This document shows, in pieces, positions 55,662 through 63,811 of a DNA stretch of 64,000 nt (positions are counted from its first letter, which is position 1; every line of letters begins with the position of its first letter). The DNA is taken from assembly GCF_002797435.1 (NCBI RefSeq), contig NZ_PGEN01000001.1, forward strand, positions 1,368,501 through 1,432,500. Reading direction: 5' to 3'. Both the position numbers and the translations under genes were made by a program. The stretch is from Sphingomonas koreensis. Lineage in GTDB: Bacteria; Pseudomonadota; Alphaproteobacteria; Sphingomonadales; Sphingomonadaceae. Below the pieces are notes generated by a model. It was not told the origin of the DNA and did no database searches. It saw only the letters and a program-made list of their open reading frames with translations.

Positions 55662-55768
55662 TCGTTCCGATCCGGACGGCGGGTCGCGCAGCGAGCCCGA
55701 CCGACGAGTCCCGGCTTTGCCGGGACCGGATCCAGACGACCCGGCCTACCGGCTGGACCAAAAGCAAA

Positions 55769-55800
55769 GGGCCGGCGGAGCGATCCGCCGGCCCTTTCTT
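55769..55800 (+). terminator. Rho-independent terminator downstream of groEL
   Basis: 11-base perfect GC stem (GGGCCGGCGGA / TCCGCCGGCCC) with a 4-base loop and a T-rich tail TTTCTTCTT. It insulates groESL from the following acyltransferase unit. Confidence 0.88.
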
Positions 55801-55865: not shown

Positions 55866-57062
55866 ATGAACGCGGCGAAGGCCATTGATCGATCGATTGT
55901 CCGTGAGGCGGCGTCCACGCTGCACCTCGCGCCAGCCGCGCTGTCCGCCGATTTCCTTCCGCTCGGCCTGACCGACCCCGCCCTTGCCGCCGAGTGGGAC
56001 GATCTCGCCGCGAACGCCTCCGAACCCAATGCCTTCATGGAACGCTGGTTCGTCACCGCGGGCACCGCGCATCTTCCCCCCCGCCAGGGCCGCCTGCTCG
56101 CCGTCCGCGCCGACGAGCAACTCATCGGTCTGCTCCCGCTCACCATGGAAACGCGCTACGGTCGCCTGCCGATCGCACATGTCGAGAACTGGCTCCATTA
56201 TCACTGCTTCCTCGGCGGCCCGCTGCTCCGCCATGGCCATGAGGCCGCCGGCTGGACCGCGATCCTCGCCGCGCTCGACACCGATCCGCAGTCGCGCGGT
56301 CTGCTGCACCTCACCGGGCTGGTCGAGGACGGCCCGGTCCACCGCGCCCTGCTCGCCGCCGCGAACCGCCCCTGCGACACCGTCCACCGGATCGAGCGCG
56401 CACTGCTCCAGAGCGACCTGTCGCCCACCGCCTATTACGAAGCCACGGTGCGCAAGAAGAAGCGCAAGGAGATCAAGCGCCTCCAGTCGCGCCTCGCCGA
56501 ATTGGGCAGCGTCACCACCACGCGGCTCACCGGTCGCGCCGACCTCCCCGCCTGGATCGACACCTATCTCGCGCTGGAAAAATCCGGCTGGAAGGGTCGC
56601 GCGGGTTCGGCGCTCGCCAGCGAGCCGCACACCGCCGCCTTCTTCCGCGACGCGCTCACCGGCGCGTTCGACGCTGGCCAGCTCGAACTCCTCCGCCTCG
56701 ACCTTGACGGCGAGCCGCTGGCGATGCTGGTCAACTTCCTCACCGCCCCCGGCTCCTTCTCGTTCAAGACCGCGTTCGACGAGGCATTTTCCCGCTACTC
56801 CCCCGGCGTGCTGATCCAGCTCGAGAATCTCGCTATTCTCGACAATCCCGCCATCGCCTGGATGGACAGCTGCGCCGCCGCCGACCACCCGATGATCGAC
56901 AGCCTGTGGGGCGAGCGCCGTGCCATCGTCCGCGTCACCCTGCCGCTCTCCGGCTGGCGCAGCCGCACCCTCTTCCGTGTCGCCCGCGCCGTCGAGCGCG
57001 CCGCGCAAGCCATCCGCAACCGCCGCACGCGCCCGCAAGCGCCTCCGGAGACCGAAGAATGA
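55866..57062 (+). CDS. BioF2/CelD-like acyltransferase (Acetyltransf_6, FemAB/GNAT superfamily)
   Basis: A 398-residue cytoplasmic protein. An N-terminal region (about 25-170) is followed by the Acetyltransf_6 domain (about 175-330). That domain opens with a lysine/arginine-rich K-K-K-R-K-E-I-K-R-L-Q-S-R-L-A-E-L-G helix, typical of the family, and ends with F-K-T-A-F-D-E-A-F-S-R-Y-S-P-G. FemAB/CelD relatives transfer aminoacyl or acetyl groups to cell-envelope precursors. The basic C-terminal tail (R-x-R-R-T-R-P) is not conserved in the family. The ATG at 55866 is preferred to the frame opening at 55827. The stop overlaps the oxygenase start (ATGA). Confidence 0.8.
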   Translation: MNAAKAIDRSIVREAASTLHLAPAALSADFLPLGLTDPALAAEWDDLAANASEPNAFMERWFVTAGTAHLPPRQGRLLAVRADEQLIGLLPLTMETRYGRLPIAHVENWLHYHCFLGGPLLRHGHEAAGWTAILAALDTDPQSRGLLHLTGLVEDGPVHRALLAAANRPCDTVHRIERALLQSDLSPTAYYEATVRKKKRKEIKRLQSRLAELGSVTTTRLTGRADLPAWIDTYLALEKSGWKGRAGSALASEPHTAAFFRDALTGAFDAGQLELLRLDLDGEPLAMLVNFLTAPGSFSFKTAFDEAFSRYSPGVLIQLENLAILDNPAIAWMDSCAAADHPMIDSLWGERRAIVRVTLPLSGWRSRTLFRVARAVERAAQAIRNRRTRPQAPPETEE

Positions 57063-57943
57063 CCGCTACCCGCCTCGCGCCGGCAACTGTGTTCGACACC
57101 GACGCCCGCGCGCGTTTCGCCACTCTCTATCCCGAGCAGCCGGGCAAGATCGCCCACGCCCTCACCGGCCATAAGCTGTTCGAACTTGAGGCGCTGGTCG
57201 AACTCTCGCAGCGCATCCGCCCGGTCGATGTCGAACAGAATCTCGCCAACCTCCCGATCGAGGTCGATCCGTCCACGGTGCAGCATAACGGCCTGTCGGT
57301 CGCCGACTCGATCCGTTCGATCGAGCAGAACGGCTCGTGGATGGTGCTCAAGTTCATCGAGCAGGATGCTGTCTATCGCCAGCTCCTCGACGAGATCCTC
57401 GACGAGCTTCAGCCGGTGGTGGCGGCCCGCACCGGCGCGATGATCAAGCGCGAAGCGTTCGTCTTCGTCTCCTCGCCCGGCGCGGTCACGCCCTTCCACA
57501 TGGACCCGGAGCACAACATCCTGCTCCAGCTGCGGGGTGAGAAGACGATGACGCTCTTCCCCGCCGCCGATCCCGAGCTGACCCCCGGCGCGCTGCAGGA
57601 GGAATTCCATCGCGGTGCCCACCGCAACCTGCCCTATCGCGACGCCTTCCTGCCCAAGGGTCAGCCGATCCCGCTCACGCCCGGGGAAGGCCTCTATGTT
57701 CCGGTCAAGGCGCCGCACTGGGTACAGAACGGCGCTGCCACCTCGGTCTCGCTGTCGGTCACCTGGCGCTCCGAATGGAGCTACCGCGAGGCCGACGCCC
57801 ACGCCTTCAACCGCCTGCTGCGCGGCGCGGGCCTCAGCCCCGCCATGCCTGCGCGCTATCCGCGCCAGAACATGCTCAAGGCCTATGCCTGGCGCGCCAT
57901 CGCCAAGGCGCGACGGCTAGCAGGAAATCCCGACCCGCAATGA
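57059..57943 (+). CDS. JmjC/FIH-like 2-oxoglutarate- and Fe(II)-dependent oxygenase
   Basis: A 294-residue cupin_8/JmjC-fold protein. The metal triad is H147-x-D149 with H220. In the same block N153 and K162 keep the spacing of N205 and K214 in human FIH, where the lysine binds 2-oxoglutarate. The stretch N-x-L-L-Q-L-R-G-E-K-T-M-T-L-F-P-A is diagnostic of the family. Members hydroxylate protein side chains, ribosomal proteins or small molecules. The gene lies between two acyltransferase genes with four-base overlaps on both sides, so the three products probably act on one substrate. Confidence 0.85.
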   Translation: MTATRLAPATVFDTDARARFATLYPEQPGKIAHALTGHKLFELEALVELSQRIRPVDVEQNLANLPIEVDPSTVQHNGLSVADSIRSIEQNGSWMVLKFIEQDAVYRQLLDEILDELQPVVAARTGAMIKREAFVFVSSPGAVTPFHMDPEHNILLQLRGEKTMTLFPAADPELTPGALQEEFHRGAHRNLPYRDAFLPKGQPIPLTPGEGLYVPVKAPHWVQNGAATSVSLSVTWRSEWSYREADAHAFNRLLRGAGLSPAMPARYPRQNMLKAYAWRAIAKARRLAGNPDPQ

Positions 57944-58980
57944 CCGCCCCCCTACCCCTGGCCGCCAGCCACGACGCCGCGCGCCTCCATGAGTCGCTCG
58001 ACGGTATCGCGCGTGCCGCGTCCAGGGCCGCGCAGCCGGGCTTCTACGACCGCCACGATTGGCTCGCGCTCACCCATGCGCACATCTATCCCAGCGATCC
58101 GCTCGCCATCGCCAGCGTGCGCGAGGGCGATGCCACTGCCTGGCTGCCACTGCGTGACTGCGGCGGTGGGCACGGCCGCGGCTTGGCGAGCTGGTACACG
58201 CTCGCTTTCGCACCGCTCTTCACGCCGGGCACCGATCCGGACACCCGCGCCCGCCTGCTCGGCGAGATCGCCCGCATCCTTCGCCGCCGCTTCGATACGC
58301 TCAGCCTCTGGCCGCTAGAAGCCGATGTCGCCGCCGAGCTTCAGGCGGCGTTCCGGGCGCAAGGCTGGCTGCCGCGTCTTCAGTTCGAGACCGCCAACTG
58401 GGTCGCCGAGACCGCCGGCCTCGATTTCGACGCCTATTGGGCCAATCGCCCGTCGAAACTGCGCAACACCGTTCGCCGCCGGACAAAGAACTCGCCCTTC
58501 ACCACCGACGTGCTCGATCGCTTCGACGATGCCGCGTGGGATGCGTACGAGACAGTCTATGCGCAGAGCTGGAAGCCGGACGAAGGAGCTCCCGACTTCC
58601 TCCGCGCCGCCGCGGCAGCAGAAGGAGCGGCGGGCACGCTTCGCCTCGGCATCGCGCGGCGCGACGGCGTTCCGGTCGCTGCTCAATTCTGGACGGTCGA
58701 GAACGGCCACGCCACGATCCACAAGCTCGCCTATCTTGAAAGCGAACGCGAGCATTCACCGGGCACGCTGCTGTCCGTGGCAATGTTCCGCCATGTCCTC
58801 GATCGGGATCGTCCGGCGATGATCGATTATGGCAATGGCAACGAGCCATACAAGGCCGAGTGGATGGACACTCGGCGCGAGCGCTTCCGCCTGCGCCTGT
58901 TCAACCTTCGCAGTGTCGGCGGCCTCTCTCAGGGTGTAAGCCGCGCCGCCCGCGCCGCGCTCCGCCGGATCACGGGCTAG
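57940..58980 (+). CDS. CelD-like acyltransferase (Acetyltransf_6)
   Basis: A 346-residue second acyltransferase of the unit. The domain (about 155-320) begins with S-K-L-R-N-T-V-R-R-R-T-K and ends with the characteristic I-D-Y-G-N-G-N-E-P-Y-K-A-E-W-M, an almost textbook Acetyltransf_6 ending. The N-terminal half (20-145) has a degenerate GNAT-like look: G-F-Y-D-R-H-D-W-L and later L-S-L-W-P-L-E. It shares little with the first enzyme of the unit beyond the family signatures, so the two are not recent duplicates. Its stop overlaps the convergent methyltransferase gene by 11 bases. Confidence 0.8.
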   Translation: MTAPLPLAASHDAARLHESLDGIARAASRAAQPGFYDRHDWLALTHAHIYPSDPLAIASVREGDATAWLPLRDCGGGHGRGLASWYTLAFAPLFTPGTDPDTRARLLGEIARILRRRFDTLSLWPLEADVAAELQAAFRAQGWLPRLQFETANWVAETAGLDFDAYWANRPSKLRNTVRRRTKNSPFTTDVLDRFDDAAWDAYETVYAQSWKPDEGAPDFLRAAAAAEGAAGTLRLGIARRDGVPVAAQFWTVENGHATIHKLAYLESEREHSPGTLLSVAMFRHVLDRDRPAMIDYGNGNEPYKAEWMDTRRERFRLRLFNLRSVGGLSQGVSRAARAALRRITG

Positions 58981-59746
58981 GGATCGGCTCCGCCGCAATT
59001 GTATAGTCAAATCCGTGACGCAGCCCGTCAAGGCGCGCGTCCGCCGCTAACGCCCGCTCGCGAATGGCCTCACCCTGGGCCTGCAACGCCGCCGCCAGCG
59101 CCCGGTCGGGCATCGCCTCAAGCCGGCGGAGGCACATGTCGATCTGGCTGTTCACGAAGCGAGCGCCGTACCGGATCGGGAAACGTGCCACGTCGATCAC
59201 CCGCCAGCCGTTCGTCTCCATTCGCTCCACCAACCATTCGAGCGGAAACTCGCGATAGGGCCGCTCGCCGGACAGCAGCAGGCAGGCGTCGCGATACCGC
59301 CCGATCTCCCAGATGATCCGACCCGCCTCGGTCCCCGGATCGCGGCTGACATAGGGTTCCAGCCCGACCAGATAGAGCCGCCCCGCCGTCACGCCATGCA
59401 GCCGAGCGAACATCCGCTCCTGGAAATAGGGCGCAAACCCCTCGATCGCGCCGATCAGGTAATCGGCGAGCACGGTGTCGAACCGCTCTCCGGCCAACAG
59501 CTGCGGGTCGGCCCAATTGCCGACGATGATTCGGTCCTCGGGGCGCCGAACCGACTCGGCCACGTCGCGGACCTGCGCCGCATGCCCGACCGCGCCGCTC
59601 ACCGCGACCCAGCGCTCGGTCTGGATCGACGTCACCCACTGGATCGAATTGGTGCCCGTCCCGGCGTCGAGCAAGGCGCCCCAGGGCCGCTCGCCCTGGA
59701 GCGCCTCGATATGCCGGAACAGTGCGGACGGCTGTCGCGTCCGCAC
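58970..59746 (-). CDS. Class I SAM-dependent methyltransferase-like protein
   Basis: A 258-residue protein. D-A-G-T-G-T-N-S-I-Q-W (residues 27-37) is the SAM-binding loop, although the residues after it are unusual. G-N-W-A-D and D-T-V-L-A-D-Y-L-I-G-A provide motifs II and IV. The C-terminal 100 residues carry E-F-P-L-E-W-L-V-E-R-M-E-x-N-G-W, the typical helix-strand of the substrate side. The start is GTG with a GGGG stretch before it, 29 bases after the TonB receptor stop, so it is probably co-transcribed with it. Substrate unknown. Confidence 0.7.
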   Translation of the reverse strand: MRTRQPSALFRHIEALQGERPWGALLDAGTGTNSIQWVTSIQTERWVAVSGAVGHAAQVRDVAESVRRPEDRIIVGNWADPQLLAGERFDTVLADYLIGAIEGFAPYFQERMFARLHGVTAGRLYLVGLEPYVSRDPGTEAGRIIWEIGRYRDACLLLSGERPYREFPLEWLVERMETNGWRVIDVARFPIRYGARFVNSQIDMCLRRLEAMPDRALAAALQAQGEAIRERALAADARLDGLRHGFDYTIAAEPIPSP

Positions 59747-59775: not shown

Positions 59776-61866
59776 TCAGAACGCCGCCCGCAGCCCGAAC
59801 ACGATGTTCCGCCCGCGCAGCGGCGCCGCATTCTTGATGAAGGACGCGTGATTGAACGCCAGTTCGTTGGTCAGGTTGGTCCCGCGCACGAACAGTTCGG
59901 CGCTGCGGTTGGCACCCAGCTCCAGCTTGTAGGCGACCGTCGCATTGACCATGTCGTAGCCCGGGGTCGTGGTCTCGTACGACGCGACCTTCCCTTGCTC
60001 GAACACATGATAATATTCGGCGTCCGCCGTGAAGGGGCCGACATGCGCGTCGGCGCGTGCGCCCAGCCGCCCGGCGGGGATACGCGGCAGATTGCCCTGC
60101 CCGTCCTTGAACTTGGCGCGGACATAATCGCCGAACAGCGACGCGGCGAATTGCGGGCTGAATTCATAGCGCACCTCGCCGTCGATCCCGGTGAAGGTCG
60201 CGCCGCGCCCGACATAGCGGATCAGGCGGAAGTCCTCGAACTGGTCGATCGTGTCGCCATAGATATAGTTGGCGAAGTCCTGATGATACGCGCCGATGGT
60301 GAAGGTCGCCGCGCCCTTGGTCTTGCGCAGCGTCAGGTTGACCGAGTTCGACTTCTCCTCGCGCGTCGATACATCGACCGGCAGCCGCGTGTTGCCGGTA
60401 ACCATTCCGATCTCGAACGTGTTGGTCGCAAGGTGGACGCCATAAGCGTACAGCTCCTGCACCGACGGCGCGCGCTCGGCATGGACAAAGGACAGCGCGA
60501 TCGAATGGCTGTCGTCGAGGTTCCATACCGCCGCGGCCGATGCCGAGAAGGGGCTGTGGCTGATCGAGGGATAGCGCGCCACGTGCGACTTCACCTCCTG
60601 CCACTCCTGCCGCACCGCGCCTTCGAGCCGCACCGGGCCCAGCTGAAGCGATTCCATCAGGAACAGCGCGGTATTCTTGGTCGTGGTGTCGATCAGGAAC
60701 GCCTCCGCGCCATCGGCGGAGAAGTCGCTTTCCCAATGCTGCACCCCGAATACGCCACGCAGCCCGCCGATCGGCTTGTGCGCCAGCTCCAGCCTGATGT
60801 CGGTCGCCTTGTTGCGGAAGGTCGTGGCGACCTCGCCCTCGTCCAGCTCGTCATGCTCATAGTCGGTAAACGACATACGGAAGCGCACCCGTTCGAATCC
60901 AGGCAATGGATCGCGCCAGTCGCTGCGGATGTCGAACCGGTCGCTCCGCAGCTTCACCTGGGGCGGATCCTCGTGATCGTGCCCATGGTCATGGTCGTGA
61001 TCGCCATCGTCATGGCCATGCCCGCCGCAATGCAGGCTGGTGCCATGCGGGTGACAATCCTCATATTCGTGGTTGTGCCCCGGCAGGCCGTAGCTGCTGC
61101 GCTGGCGGGTATAGGCGACGCCCAGATAGCCGTTGTCGCCGATCCACGACGCGCCCGCGCTCAGCGTGTCGGTGTCGTTATACGATCCGACGACATGGTC
61201 CTCGCCGAAACTGCCGGGCACGCGATAGTCGTTTGACTTGCGCTTCACGCCCTCGATGCGAAGCGCGAACGGCCCGACCCCTGCGGTGGCCCCGCCGACG
61301 ATCGCACGCTCGTCGTCGCCGGTGCCCAGCCGGCCCTCGATCGCCCCGGTGATCCCGCCCTCGGGGATCGATGTTGGCACCTTCTCGTCGAGCAGGTTGA
61401 TCGCGCCGCCGCTCGCGCCGCTGCCATAGAGCAGGGTTGCGGGGCCGCGCAGCACCTCAATACCCCGCAGCAGCAGCGGCTCGACCGCGATATTATGGTC
61501 GGGCGAGATCGCCGACGCGTCCTGGATGCCGACCCCGTCGGTCAGCGCCTGGACGCGCGGCGCGGTCTGGCCGCGGATCACCGGACGGCTGGCGCCGCCG
61601 CCGAAGCTCTCGAAATTGATGCCGGGCTGGCCCGCCAGCGTTTCGCCGATCGTCGCCGCACGGCGATGGACCAGCTCGTCACCGCTCAGCGTGATCACTG
61701 GAGTCGCGGTCTCGTCCGCGGTTTGCTGCAACGGGGTCGCGGTGATGACCACCTCGCCCTCGGCGTGGCTGCCCGCCTGACCCGCCGCATTGGTAGCGCT
61801 GTTCGCATAGGCCGCACCCGGCAGGATCGCGACCGCCGACACGGCACAGAGAAGATGATGACGCAC
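59776..61866 (-). CDS. TonB-dependent receptor with histidine-rich loop, ZnuD-like
   Basis: A 696-residue outer-membrane receptor. A signal peptide is followed by a plug domain (about 40-165) with V-L-R-G-P-A-T-L-L-Y-G-S and the 22-strand barrel, ending in aromatic F. One external loop (residues about 270-300) holds a dense stretch of His, Asp and Glu (H-D-D-G-D-H-D-H-D-H-G-H-D-H) plus two cysteines, the feature that marks zinc receptors such as Neisseria ZnuD. An upstream GTG at 61884 is possible, but the GTG at 61866 follows AAGGGG at ideal spacing and begins a clean signal peptide. Zinc import is inferred. Confidence 0.85.
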   Translation of the reverse strand: MRHHLLCAVSAVAILPGAAYANSATNAAGQAGSHAEGEVVITATPLQQTADETATPVITLSGDELVHRRAATIGETLAGQPGINFESFGGGASRPVIRGQTAPRVQALTDGVGIQDASAISPDHNIAVEPLLLRGIEVLRGPATLLYGSGASGGAINLLDEKVPTSIPEGGITGAIEGRLGTGDDERAIVGGATAGVGPFALRIEGVKRKSNDYRVPGSFGEDHVVGSYNDTDTLSAGASWIGDNGYLGVAYTRQRSSYGLPGHNHEYEDCHPHGTSLHCGGHGHDDGDHDHDHGHDHEDPPQVKLRSDRFDIRSDWRDPLPGFERVRFRMSFTDYEHDELDEGEVATTFRNKATDIRLELAHKPIGGLRGVFGVQHWESDFSADGAEAFLIDTTTKNTALFLMESLQLGPVRLEGAVRQEWQEVKSHVARYPSISHSPFSASAAAVWNLDDSHSIALSFVHAERAPSVQELYAYGVHLATNTFEIGMVTGNTRLPVDVSTREEKSNSVNLTLRKTKGAATFTIGAYHQDFANYIYGDTIDQFEDFRLIRYVGRGATFTGIDGEVRYEFSPQFAASLFGDYVRAKFKDGQGNLPRIPAGRLGARADAHVGPFTADAEYYHVFEQGKVASYETTTPGYDMVNATVAYKLELGANRSAELFVRGTNLTNELAFNHASFIKNAAPLRGRNIVFGLRAAF

Positions 61867-61906
61867 GCATTTACCCCTTTTCACACTCCAATGCCGGCCC
61901 GATTAG

Positions 61907-62206: not shown

Positions 62207-63811
62207 ATGACGCGCGATCAGGCCGCGCCGTACGCGATGCTCGCCGTGCTGGCGCTCGCGCTGTTCGGCGTCTTCTTCCATTGGCAGATTCTCGACATCT
62301 CCAACGTCGCCTGGCTGCTGCGCGGCAGCGACAATGGCGAGAACGCACTGGGGCTTCACGCCTGGCTGCACGATCCGGCGCCCGGCTTCGTGCGCACCAG
62401 CCTGCTCAACGCGCCCGAGGGCACCGGCCTGCTGTTCACGGACAGCAACCCGCTCCTGTCGGCGCTGGTCTTTCCGTTCCGCGGCCTGCTCCCGGCCGAT
62501 GCGCAGGTGATCGGCTGGTGGCTGCTTGCCTGCCTGTTCCTTCAACTCTTCTTCGCATGGCAACTGCTTCGCCGCCATGCGCCCAGCGAACTCGCTTTGT
62601 GGTGCGGCGTGCTGCTGCTTGCCGCCCTGCCGACGCTGTTCAACCGCATTGTCCATGTGAACCTGATGGCGCACTGGCTGATCCTGTGGGCATTGTGGCG
62701 CTTCATGGATCCGCAGCGTTCGGGATCGAACAAGGGCTGGGCGGTGCTCGTCGCGATCACCGCCTTCGTCCATAGCTATCTGCTGGTGATGGTCGGCGCG
62801 ATCTGGGCGAGCGCCATGCTCGAACGGTTCTGGAAGTCGCCGAAAGCCGCACCGCGCCTCTTCGCCGAATGCACCGCGATCCTGCTCATGGTCCTTGCCA
62901 TCGCCTGGAGCCTCGGCGTGTTCGAGCCGCACTGGCCGTCGGGCAATTACGGCGCCTTCGCGATGCCGCTCGACGCGCTGTGGAACCCCGGGATCGATAC
63001 CTATTCAGCCTTTCTTCCGGCCATCGAGCAGCGGCCCGGCCGGGGGTTCGAGGGCTTCCAGTATCTCGGACTGGGCCTGCTGATCCTGCTTCCCCTCGCC
63101 GCGTTCCTCGCCCGCCGACTGCCACGCCCCGCCACGGATGCGCCCGACAGCCTCGCACGGCTCAAATGGCTGCTGCCCGCGCTCATCGTCCTTACCTTGC
63201 TCGCGATCAGCACCTATCCCGATTTCGCCGGGCGACAGCTGCCGCGCACAGCCCTGCCCGATCGCGTCGCGATTGCACTCGACGCGGTGCGCGCGTCGGG
63301 CCGGCTGTTCTGGCCGGCCGCCTATGTTCTGGTCTTCGCGGGCATCCGTATCCTGTTCCGGCTCGAACCGCGGCGTGCCGGTCTCATCCTTGCTGCGCTC
63401 GCCATCGTCCAGACCGCCGACCTCACACCCATGGCGCTGTCGATCCGCGCCCAGAGCGCCGAGGCGCGCGGTGGCCCGCTCTATGTCCGCACCCGCTCGC
63501 TCGAATGGGACCGGCTGATCGCGCAGGCAAAGGACATCGCGTTCGTCCCGGGCGACGTCACCAAAGAGCTAGGCGTCTTTCAGGAAGTTGCCTGGCGCGC
63601 AGCGAAGGCGAAAGTGCCGGTCCGCGCGGTCTACGCCGCCCGCCCCTCGATCGCGAGCAGCGCTCGGCAAGCAAACGAGACAGAGGTGTTCCGCGCGGGA
63701 CAGGTGGTGCCGGGCCGGCTCTACATCCTGATCGACGGCGAACTGATCCCGCCGCCGTTGATGACCCAGGTGCGCCCACTCGACGGGGTCACGATCCTGT
63801 TCCAACCGTGA
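62207..63811 (+). CDS. GT-C-like polytopic membrane protein (DUF6311-type)
   Basis: A 534-residue inner-membrane protein with about 11 hydrophobic segments and a short soluble C-terminus of about 110 residues. After the first helix, G-S-D-N-G-E-N-A-L-G-L-H provides the acidic motif of the first loop, again a GT-C trait. Further on, N-A-P-E-G-T and D-S-N-P-L-L resemble the DUF6311 family of presumed glycosyltransferases. The ATG at 62207 follows GAGGGGGA; the frame is open another 41 codons but without a ribosome site. It is convergent with a mannose-1-phosphate guanylyltransferase gene, which supports a role in polysaccharide assembly. Confidence 0.72.
   Translation: MTRDQAAPYAMLAVLALALFGVFFHWQILDISNVAWLLRGSDNGENALGLHAWLHDPAPGFVRTSLLNAPEGTGLLFTDSNPLLSALVFPFRGLLPADAQVIGWWLLACLFLQLFFAWQLLRRHAPSELALWCGVLLLAALPTLFNRIVHVNLMAHWLILWALWRFMDPQRSGSNKGWAVLVAITAFVHSYLLVMVGAIWASAMLERFWKSPKAAPRLFAECTAILLMVLAIAWSLGVFEPHWPSGNYGAFAMPLDALWNPGIDTYSAFLPAIEQRPGRGFEGFQYLGLGLLILLPLAAFLARRLPRPATDAPDSLARLKWLLPALIVLTLLAISTYPDFAGRQLPRTALPDRVAIALDAVRASGRLFWPAAYVLVFAGIRILFRLEPRRAGLILAALAIVQTADLTPMALSIRAQSAEARGGPLYVRTRSLEWDRLIAQAKDIAFVPGDVTKELGVFQEVAWRAAKAKVPVRAVYAARPSIASSARQANETEVFRAGQVVPGRLYILIDGELIPPPLMTQVRPLDGVTILFQP

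Follow-up and report, generated by a model that had tools for sequence, protein, structure and literature searches.

A conserved acyltransferase–oxygenase gene pair in Sphingomonas koreensis with a probable role in exopolysaccharide tailoring

The DNA analyzed here, called the window below, is a stretch of 64,000 nucleotides from Sphingomonas koreensis (contig NZ_PGEN01000001.1, positions 1,368,501 to 1,432,500). It contains three consecutive genes, designated A, B, and C, which encode two acyltransferases of family PF13480 on either side of an oxygenase of the Cupin_8/JmjC type. In window positions, the features of this trio are:

55766..55797, plus strand: terminator-like hairpin between groEL and gene A (14 pairs, T-rich tail), the upstream boundary of the trio
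55866..57062, plus strand: gene A, predicted FemX-like tandem-GNAT acyltransferase, PF13480 (398 amino acids; ATG at 55866, stop codon at 57060-57062)
57059..57062, plus strand: ATGA, overlap of the stop of A and the start of B, as read in the sequence
57059..57943, plus strand: gene B, putative Cupin_8/JmjC Fe(II)/2-oxoglutarate oxygenase (294 amino acids)
57497..57505, plus strand: codons of the presumptive metal ligands H147-x-D149 of B, as read in the sequence; conserved
57515..57517, plus strand: codon of N153 of B, as read in the sequence; conserved
57542..57544, plus strand: codon of K162 of B, presumed 2-oxoglutarate ligand, as read in the sequence; conserved
57716..57718, plus strand: codon of H220 of B, presumptive third metal ligand, as read in the sequence; invariant in 60/60 aligned rows
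57940..57943, plus strand: ATGA, overlap of the stop of B and the start of C, as read in the sequence
57940..58980, plus strand: gene C, PF13480 acyltransferase, on the simplest account relocated from an XrtA exopolysaccharide locus (346 amino acids)

The original prediction for this DNA had described three genes joined by four-base stop/start overlaps, and its coordinates, frames, and both ATGA junctions proved exact. Because of these two overlaps, A, B, and C are probably transcribed as one message; no sigma-70-type promoter was found in the analysis of the groEL–A stretch. The acyltransferase signatures that had been assigned to the outer genes were likewise recovered, with PF13480 scores of 84.4 bits for A and 71.2 bits for C (Pfam cut-off 22). 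No NCBIfam model exceeded its cut-off for any of the three proteins, and phmmer searches with A and with C returned weak unrelated rows only. The PF13480 domain of A together with a predicted tandem-GNAT fold like that of FemX supports its classification as a FemX-like acyltransferase; a profile of A gave no sequence match to solved chains at E up to 0.1. Enzymes of the FemX type have envelope precursors bound to a carrier as their substrates.

Gene B, the single match of its kind in the S. koreensis genome, scores above the cut-offs of Cupin_8 (33.6 bits; cut-off 27.4) and JmjC_2 (22.4 bits; cut-off 22) in Pfam. Its sequence matches JMJD5 (best E 1.7e-05) and FIH (best E 0.031), and structure prediction, as had been suggested at the outset, yielded a model (predicted local distance difference test score 93.2) with a fold resembling YcfD, JMJD5, and FIH, that is, the double-stranded beta-helix of the solved members. 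The five residues singled out in the original prediction (H147, D149, N153, K162, and H220), whose spacing we take to equal that of human FIH, are all present and were retained in 106/106 B proteins, kept along with 92 A proteins from 110 loci after sequences with internal stops or without a match had been dropped. In a wider alignment of 60 rows, H147, D149, N153, and K162 occur in 59/60 and H220 in all. Sequence and predicted fold thus support the assignment of B as an FIH/JMJD5/YcfD-type oxygenase with an apparently intact Fe/2-oxoglutarate site.

The distribution of the three genes was followed in 147 genomes of the order, 151 of the genus, and a class sample of 385, with matches to A, B, or C called strong at E below about 1e-40. 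Within the order, 37 genomes carry B and 36 strong A, with both present in 36; the two genes are neighbors by coordinates in 35 of these 36, the exception (G145) having them on separate contigs, and one genome (G110) shows the order B then A. The sole B genome without a strong A (G019) has no A match at all, and its B carries R, A, Q, and Q at positions 147, 149, 153, and 162. Within the genus, the same 20 genomes carry both strong A and strong B, adjacent in every one. Divergent second copies of B in G117, G116, and G143 (33–36% identity) stand in the order B then A, and another in G122 (46% identity) is also paired with A. In the class sample, B was detected at E <1e-20 in 9/385 genomes, five of them outside the order, and A adjoins B in four of these five. 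As A immediately precedes B in 64 of 80 named loci, and 48 of 89 measured pairs overlap by −4 (with starts chosen by rule), the adjacency of A and B is not due to chance; among the 16 other named loci, three begin <1500 bases before B. In one genome, the B matches fall into two pieces about 1.2 kb apart (G080:C1:649548-651654), and the gene may be interrupted there.

The conserved core unit is therefore A-B and not the order A-B-C. A strictly conserved three-gene operon was rejected, since C stands beside B in just 7/80 named loci. The gene order did not hold up in relatives, an outcome that the original prediction had itself named as refuting, but the association did: strong C is present in 41/147 genomes of the order, including 37/37 with B, and by this genome-wide co-occurrence the three genes do behave as the functional system that had been proposed. 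Within the genus, strong C was found in 11 of the 20 A-B genomes and in no other of the 151; in 7 of these 11 it lies beside B by coordinates. Such a distribution bears on the view that the trio tailors sphingolipids or other membrane lipids, with A and/or C N-acylating a long-chain base and B hydroxylating the acyl chain. Sphingomonad sphingolipids do carry 2-hydroxy fatty acids, and a divergent B'-A' pair (L112:3372-6869) is followed by a serine palmitoyltransferase gene (NF047603 over cut-off). Sphingolipids are, however, considered a general feature of the family, whereas A, B, and C are patchy (36–41/147 genomes of the order, 11–20/151 of the genus), and beside the other pairs no serine palmitoyltransferase came to attention, although no dedicated search of the loci was made. 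The patchy distribution led us to reject ceramide synthesis as the role of A or C in sphingomonads, and we regard lipid tailoring as very improbable.

The location of C in genomes where it is not linked to B is informative. Twenty C loci, picked rather than drawn at random, were fetched from the 41 genomes of the order with strong C, and in 20/20 of them tblastn placed C between the AMP ligase and the acyl carrier protein (ACP) genes of an XrtA exopolysaccharide locus. Genes in fetched loci were called by an open reading frame rule that missed or mis-stranded some of them, and this rule had marked C in 17/20; in L131, further genes separate C from the ACP gene. The same neighborhood of ligase and ACP was found in 3/3 fetched (L155-L157) of the 4 unlinked C loci in the genus. 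Other neighbors over cut-off, besides the ligase (TIGR03098), were the decarboxylase TIGR03099, the chain-length determinant TIGR03007, the hydrolase TIGR03100, and the ATPase TIGR03015, while a second hydrolase matched TIGR03101 weakly. In a tree of 36 C proteins, the 11 operon rows form one clade (support 98/94) nested among the other C rows; the short C of L147 and that of L001 were left out, the rows of L031 and L159 are identical, and L146 was labelled XrtA although its stretch showed no XrtA gene. The S. koreensis genome itself has XrtA and a corresponding locus (L141) with ligase, decarboxylase, ACP, hydrolases, deacetylase, and FemAB, but C was looked for between ligase and ACP and is absent; two Sphingomonas loci without A-B-C (L144, L150) also lack C at this place. 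The nested operon clade and the XrtA locus devoid of C are most simply explained by a move of C, in the clade of the window, out of the XrtA locus to a new place beside A-B. The statement in the original prediction that no carrier protein is adjacent is thus true locally, but relatives of C lie near an ACP gene, and the S. koreensis genome keeps its ACP at the XrtA locus. An identity of C with the FemAB protein of TIGR03019 was rejected, as that gene is separate in the genome's own XrtA locus and C has no TIGR03019 match. Another PF13480 gene (c2; e.g., L072:8839-9930), which is convergent to B and no more than 400 bases from it in 28/80 named loci, could not be shown to be orthologous to C.

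The A-B pair has its own connection to polysaccharide synthesis. Loci of other lineages were fetched for four of nine divergent Sphingomonas pairs (L151-L154) and three of four outgroup pairs (L169-L171; G513 left out), again not at random, and in 7/7 of them A-B lies inside a polysaccharide cluster of the Wza/Wzy type. The Sphingomonas clusters encode a sugar transferase, deacetylase, PF13480 protein, FemAB, flippase, Wza, Wzc-like protein, Wzy_C, and a GT4 glycosyltransferase (Pfam for L151 and L152; tblastn for all four), and the outgroup clusters a deacetylase, PF13480 protein, flippase, Wzz, Wza, GT4, and Wzy_C (Pfam on L170; all three checked). A-B is found in polysaccharide clusters of three lineages. 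Moreover, exosortase A and the XrtA amidotransferase precede A-B in G119, and F. formosensis has a run of a deacetylase-like gene, A, B, C, and a glycosyltransferase 2 gene. A deacetylase-like gene lies within 400 bases on the same strand in 12 named loci, KpsF/KdsB/epimerase genes occur in 22, and one or the other kind of neighbor in 34/80. Two of the outgroup clusters also hold a second run of PF13480, Cupin_8, and PF13480 genes that is distinct from A-B-C (L169:12904-16481 and L170:2963-6543); its Cupin_8 proteins keep the H, D, K, and H residues, but not N153. This second GNAT-Cupin_8-GNAT run suggests a recurrent tailoring recipe.

These contexts also allow two other readings to be weighed. 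Firstly, protein hydroxylases predominate among the close solved folds listed for B, which also include the tRNA enzyme TYW5, and the home locus of C also encodes exosortase A. B could accordingly be imagined to hydroxylate a side chain of a protein, for example a PEP-CTERM protein, that A and C acylate. XrtA is far more widespread than A-B-C, however, being over cut-off in 99/147 genomes of the order, an exosortase A query had no match in the fetched stretches L151-L154 and L169-L171, and the carrier-bound precursors on which FemX-type enzymes act also argue against protein modification, which we consider very improbable. Secondly, a small molecule, either secreted or bound to the membrane, such as an N-acyl amino acid, lipoamine, or signal, might be produced by the XrtA ligase, decarboxylase, and ACP together with A, B, and C and be co-regulated with exopolysaccharide. 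The carrier-protein chemistry and hydrolases of the XrtA locus would fit such a product, and N-acyl amino acid synthase genes are reported often to adjoin PEP-CTERM/exosortase genes (PMC7293339). Against it stand the position of A-B in Wza/Wzy clusters in 3/3 fetched outgroup loci, the outgroup A-B genomes G598, G410, G513, and G610, in 4/4 of which no TIGR03099 decarboxylase reaches the cut-off (best scores 189–214 bits versus 478), and the NCBIfam matches of A and of C, none of which is to an N-acyl amino acid synthase model. We judge a small-molecule product to be unlikely.

The explanation that we favor, and regard as probable, is that A, B, and C constitute a cytoplasmic tailoring set which acylates and hydroxylates an exopolysaccharide precursor. 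While the enzyme types and the membership of the module were established computationally, the cytoplasmic location, the identity of the polymer, the donors and acceptors, the order of the steps, and the use of one polymer by all three enzymes are what we infer from them. A and C would acylate or aminoacylate a sugar, and B would hydroxylate the sugar or the attached group, or perhaps this group while still on its carrier, using Fe(II), O2, and 2-oxoglutarate. The acceptor would most likely, if with less certainty, be an amino sugar, either in the lipid-linked repeat unit or in its nucleotide precursor, and it may be acylated twice. Similarly, and again with less certainty, C might take its group from the ACP of the XrtA locus, which would be loaded by the XrtA AMP ligase and whose cargo would be processed by the BtrK-like decarboxylase. 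Since exopolysaccharide loci house A-B and, separately, C in other genomes, the substrate is not wholly open: among the options of the original prediction, an envelope precursor is favored and a lipid or a peptide is less likely. Its interpretation is thus partly supported and sharpened, A-B-C being best described as a probable variant of polysaccharide tailoring.

Several observations weigh against exopolysaccharide tailoring. The trio in the window lies downstream of groEL with no polysaccharide locus adjoining, 46/80 named loci have neither a KpsF/KdsB/epimerase gene nor a deacetylase-like gene as neighbor, and the deacetylase-like family scores under the Pfam cut-off. C is apart from B in 73/80 named loci and is unlinked in most genomes that carry it, 9/20 A-B genomes of the genus have no strong C, and no XrtA genes accompany a weak C match in the fetched stretch of G008 (L146). 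B also occurs apart from A: a second copy in G068 (L117:3944-4672) keeps the five residues, yet the fetched stretch of 8.5 kb contains no match to A, and G564, outside the order, likewise lacks an A match despite its three B-like genes. Furthermore, the co-occurrence counts are raw and not corrected for phylogeny, and the XrtA clusters could make a small molecule instead of a polymer.

The tailoring of an exopolysaccharide would be an unexpected job for FIH-like oxygenases, which are known mainly for protein hydroxylation. The XrtA ligase, decarboxylase, and ACP models are named only as hypothetical equivalogs, and C would give this branch a concrete role. Sphingomonad slimes have industrial uses and help to shape biofilms. 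Full-text searches yielded no title on the A-B-C trio, most subscription journals being outside their scope, and in the paper by Haft (2006; PMC1569441) the terms ligase, decarboxylase, acetyltransferase, FemAB, hydrolase, and Sphingomonadales each had 0 occurrences.

Downstream of the trio, a 258-amino-acid gene on the minus strand (58970-59746) is convergent with C; its N-terminal half looks methyltransferase-like by eye, and searches of Pfam and NCBIfam gave nothing at E 0.1. It is followed on the minus strand by a gene for a TonB-receptor-like protein with a His/Asp-rich stretch (59776-61884; by eye), possibly involved in metal uptake, and at 62207-63811 by a gene for a DUF6311 membrane protein, a relative of which sits directly after C in L034. 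Outside the order, one of the two G564 stretches (L172, L173) holds a gene 36% identical to that of the XrtA ATPase.

Among known systems, the Caulobacter GNAT protein HfsK appears by analogy to be the closest functional precedent that we found. In the accessible part of the report on it, the closest solved homolog of this tandem-GNAT protein is FemX, indirect evidence for modification of the holdfast polysaccharide is given, and HfsK is thought to act in one pathway with the polysaccharide deacetylase HfsH (PMC5362036). The likeness is one by description, and differs in that HfsK is a cyclic di-GMP effector and that this part of the report names no oxygenase for the holdfast (PMC5362036). Within PF13480, A also matches the BspF-type model NF047385 over residues 40-365, but with 155 bits it remains far under the cut-off of 775 bits, and its context is unlike that of a secreted effector. 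B shares 14–22% identity in alignments with the 2-oxoglutarate oxygenases FIH, JMJD5, YcfD, and YxbC, but its gene context is linked to polysaccharides and its substrate is presumably not a protein. The XrtA/PEP-CTERM locus (TIGR03098, 03099, 03100, 03006, 03007, 03015, 03019, 03027), in which C is resident in the 20 fetched relatives, is represented here by models that include no oxygenase, and A-B-C are outside the NCBIfam models.

The butirosin pathway offers a further parallel, which had been drawn before the search that recovered BtrK. In that search, the XrtA decarboxylase of the S. koreensis genome had BtrK as its best match among solved chains (E 4.8e-66, 226.7 bits; best diaminopimelate decarboxylase, E 1.3e-38), while the best solved matches of the XrtA ligase are adenylation domains of non-ribosomal peptide synthetases, and the ACP matches 2lki. 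The TIGR03099 decarboxylase is over cut-off in 20/20 A-B genomes of the genus; because the four outgroup A-B genomes mentioned above are without it, the carrier-protein branch belongs with C and not necessarily with B, and the idea that B generally acts on a butirosin-like substrate was rejected. G124, which is without strong A, B, C, and XrtA, retains ligase, decarboxylase, and ACP, while C, Wza, Wzz, and the hydrolases all went without a match in its fetched stretch. In a variant of exopolysaccharide tailoring that follows the butirosin logic, the AMP ligase would load an amino acid onto the ACP, BtrK-like decarboxylation and FIH-like 2-oxoglutarate-dependent hydroxylation would follow, and C or A would transfer the product, so that the trio would attach a hydroxylated omega-aminoacyl group built on a carrier protein to an amino sugar of the exopolysaccharide and make the slime cationic; we hold this variant to be possible but doubtful. 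It would share with butirosin biosynthesis (BtrI, BtrJ, BtrK, BtrO, BtrH) a decarboxylase of the BtrK type, named L-glutamyl-[BtrI ACP] decarboxylase, a carrier protein, an acyltransferase, and a hydroxylation step, the roles of the Btr proteins other than BtrK being those that we take them to have. Presumably, the two systems differ in the AMP ligase used here versus the ATP-grasp enzyme BtrJ, in the JmjC-type oxygenase versus the flavin enzyme BtrO, and in the acyltransferase family. The acceptor in butirosin is an aminoglycoside, whereas the acceptor proposed here is a polymer.

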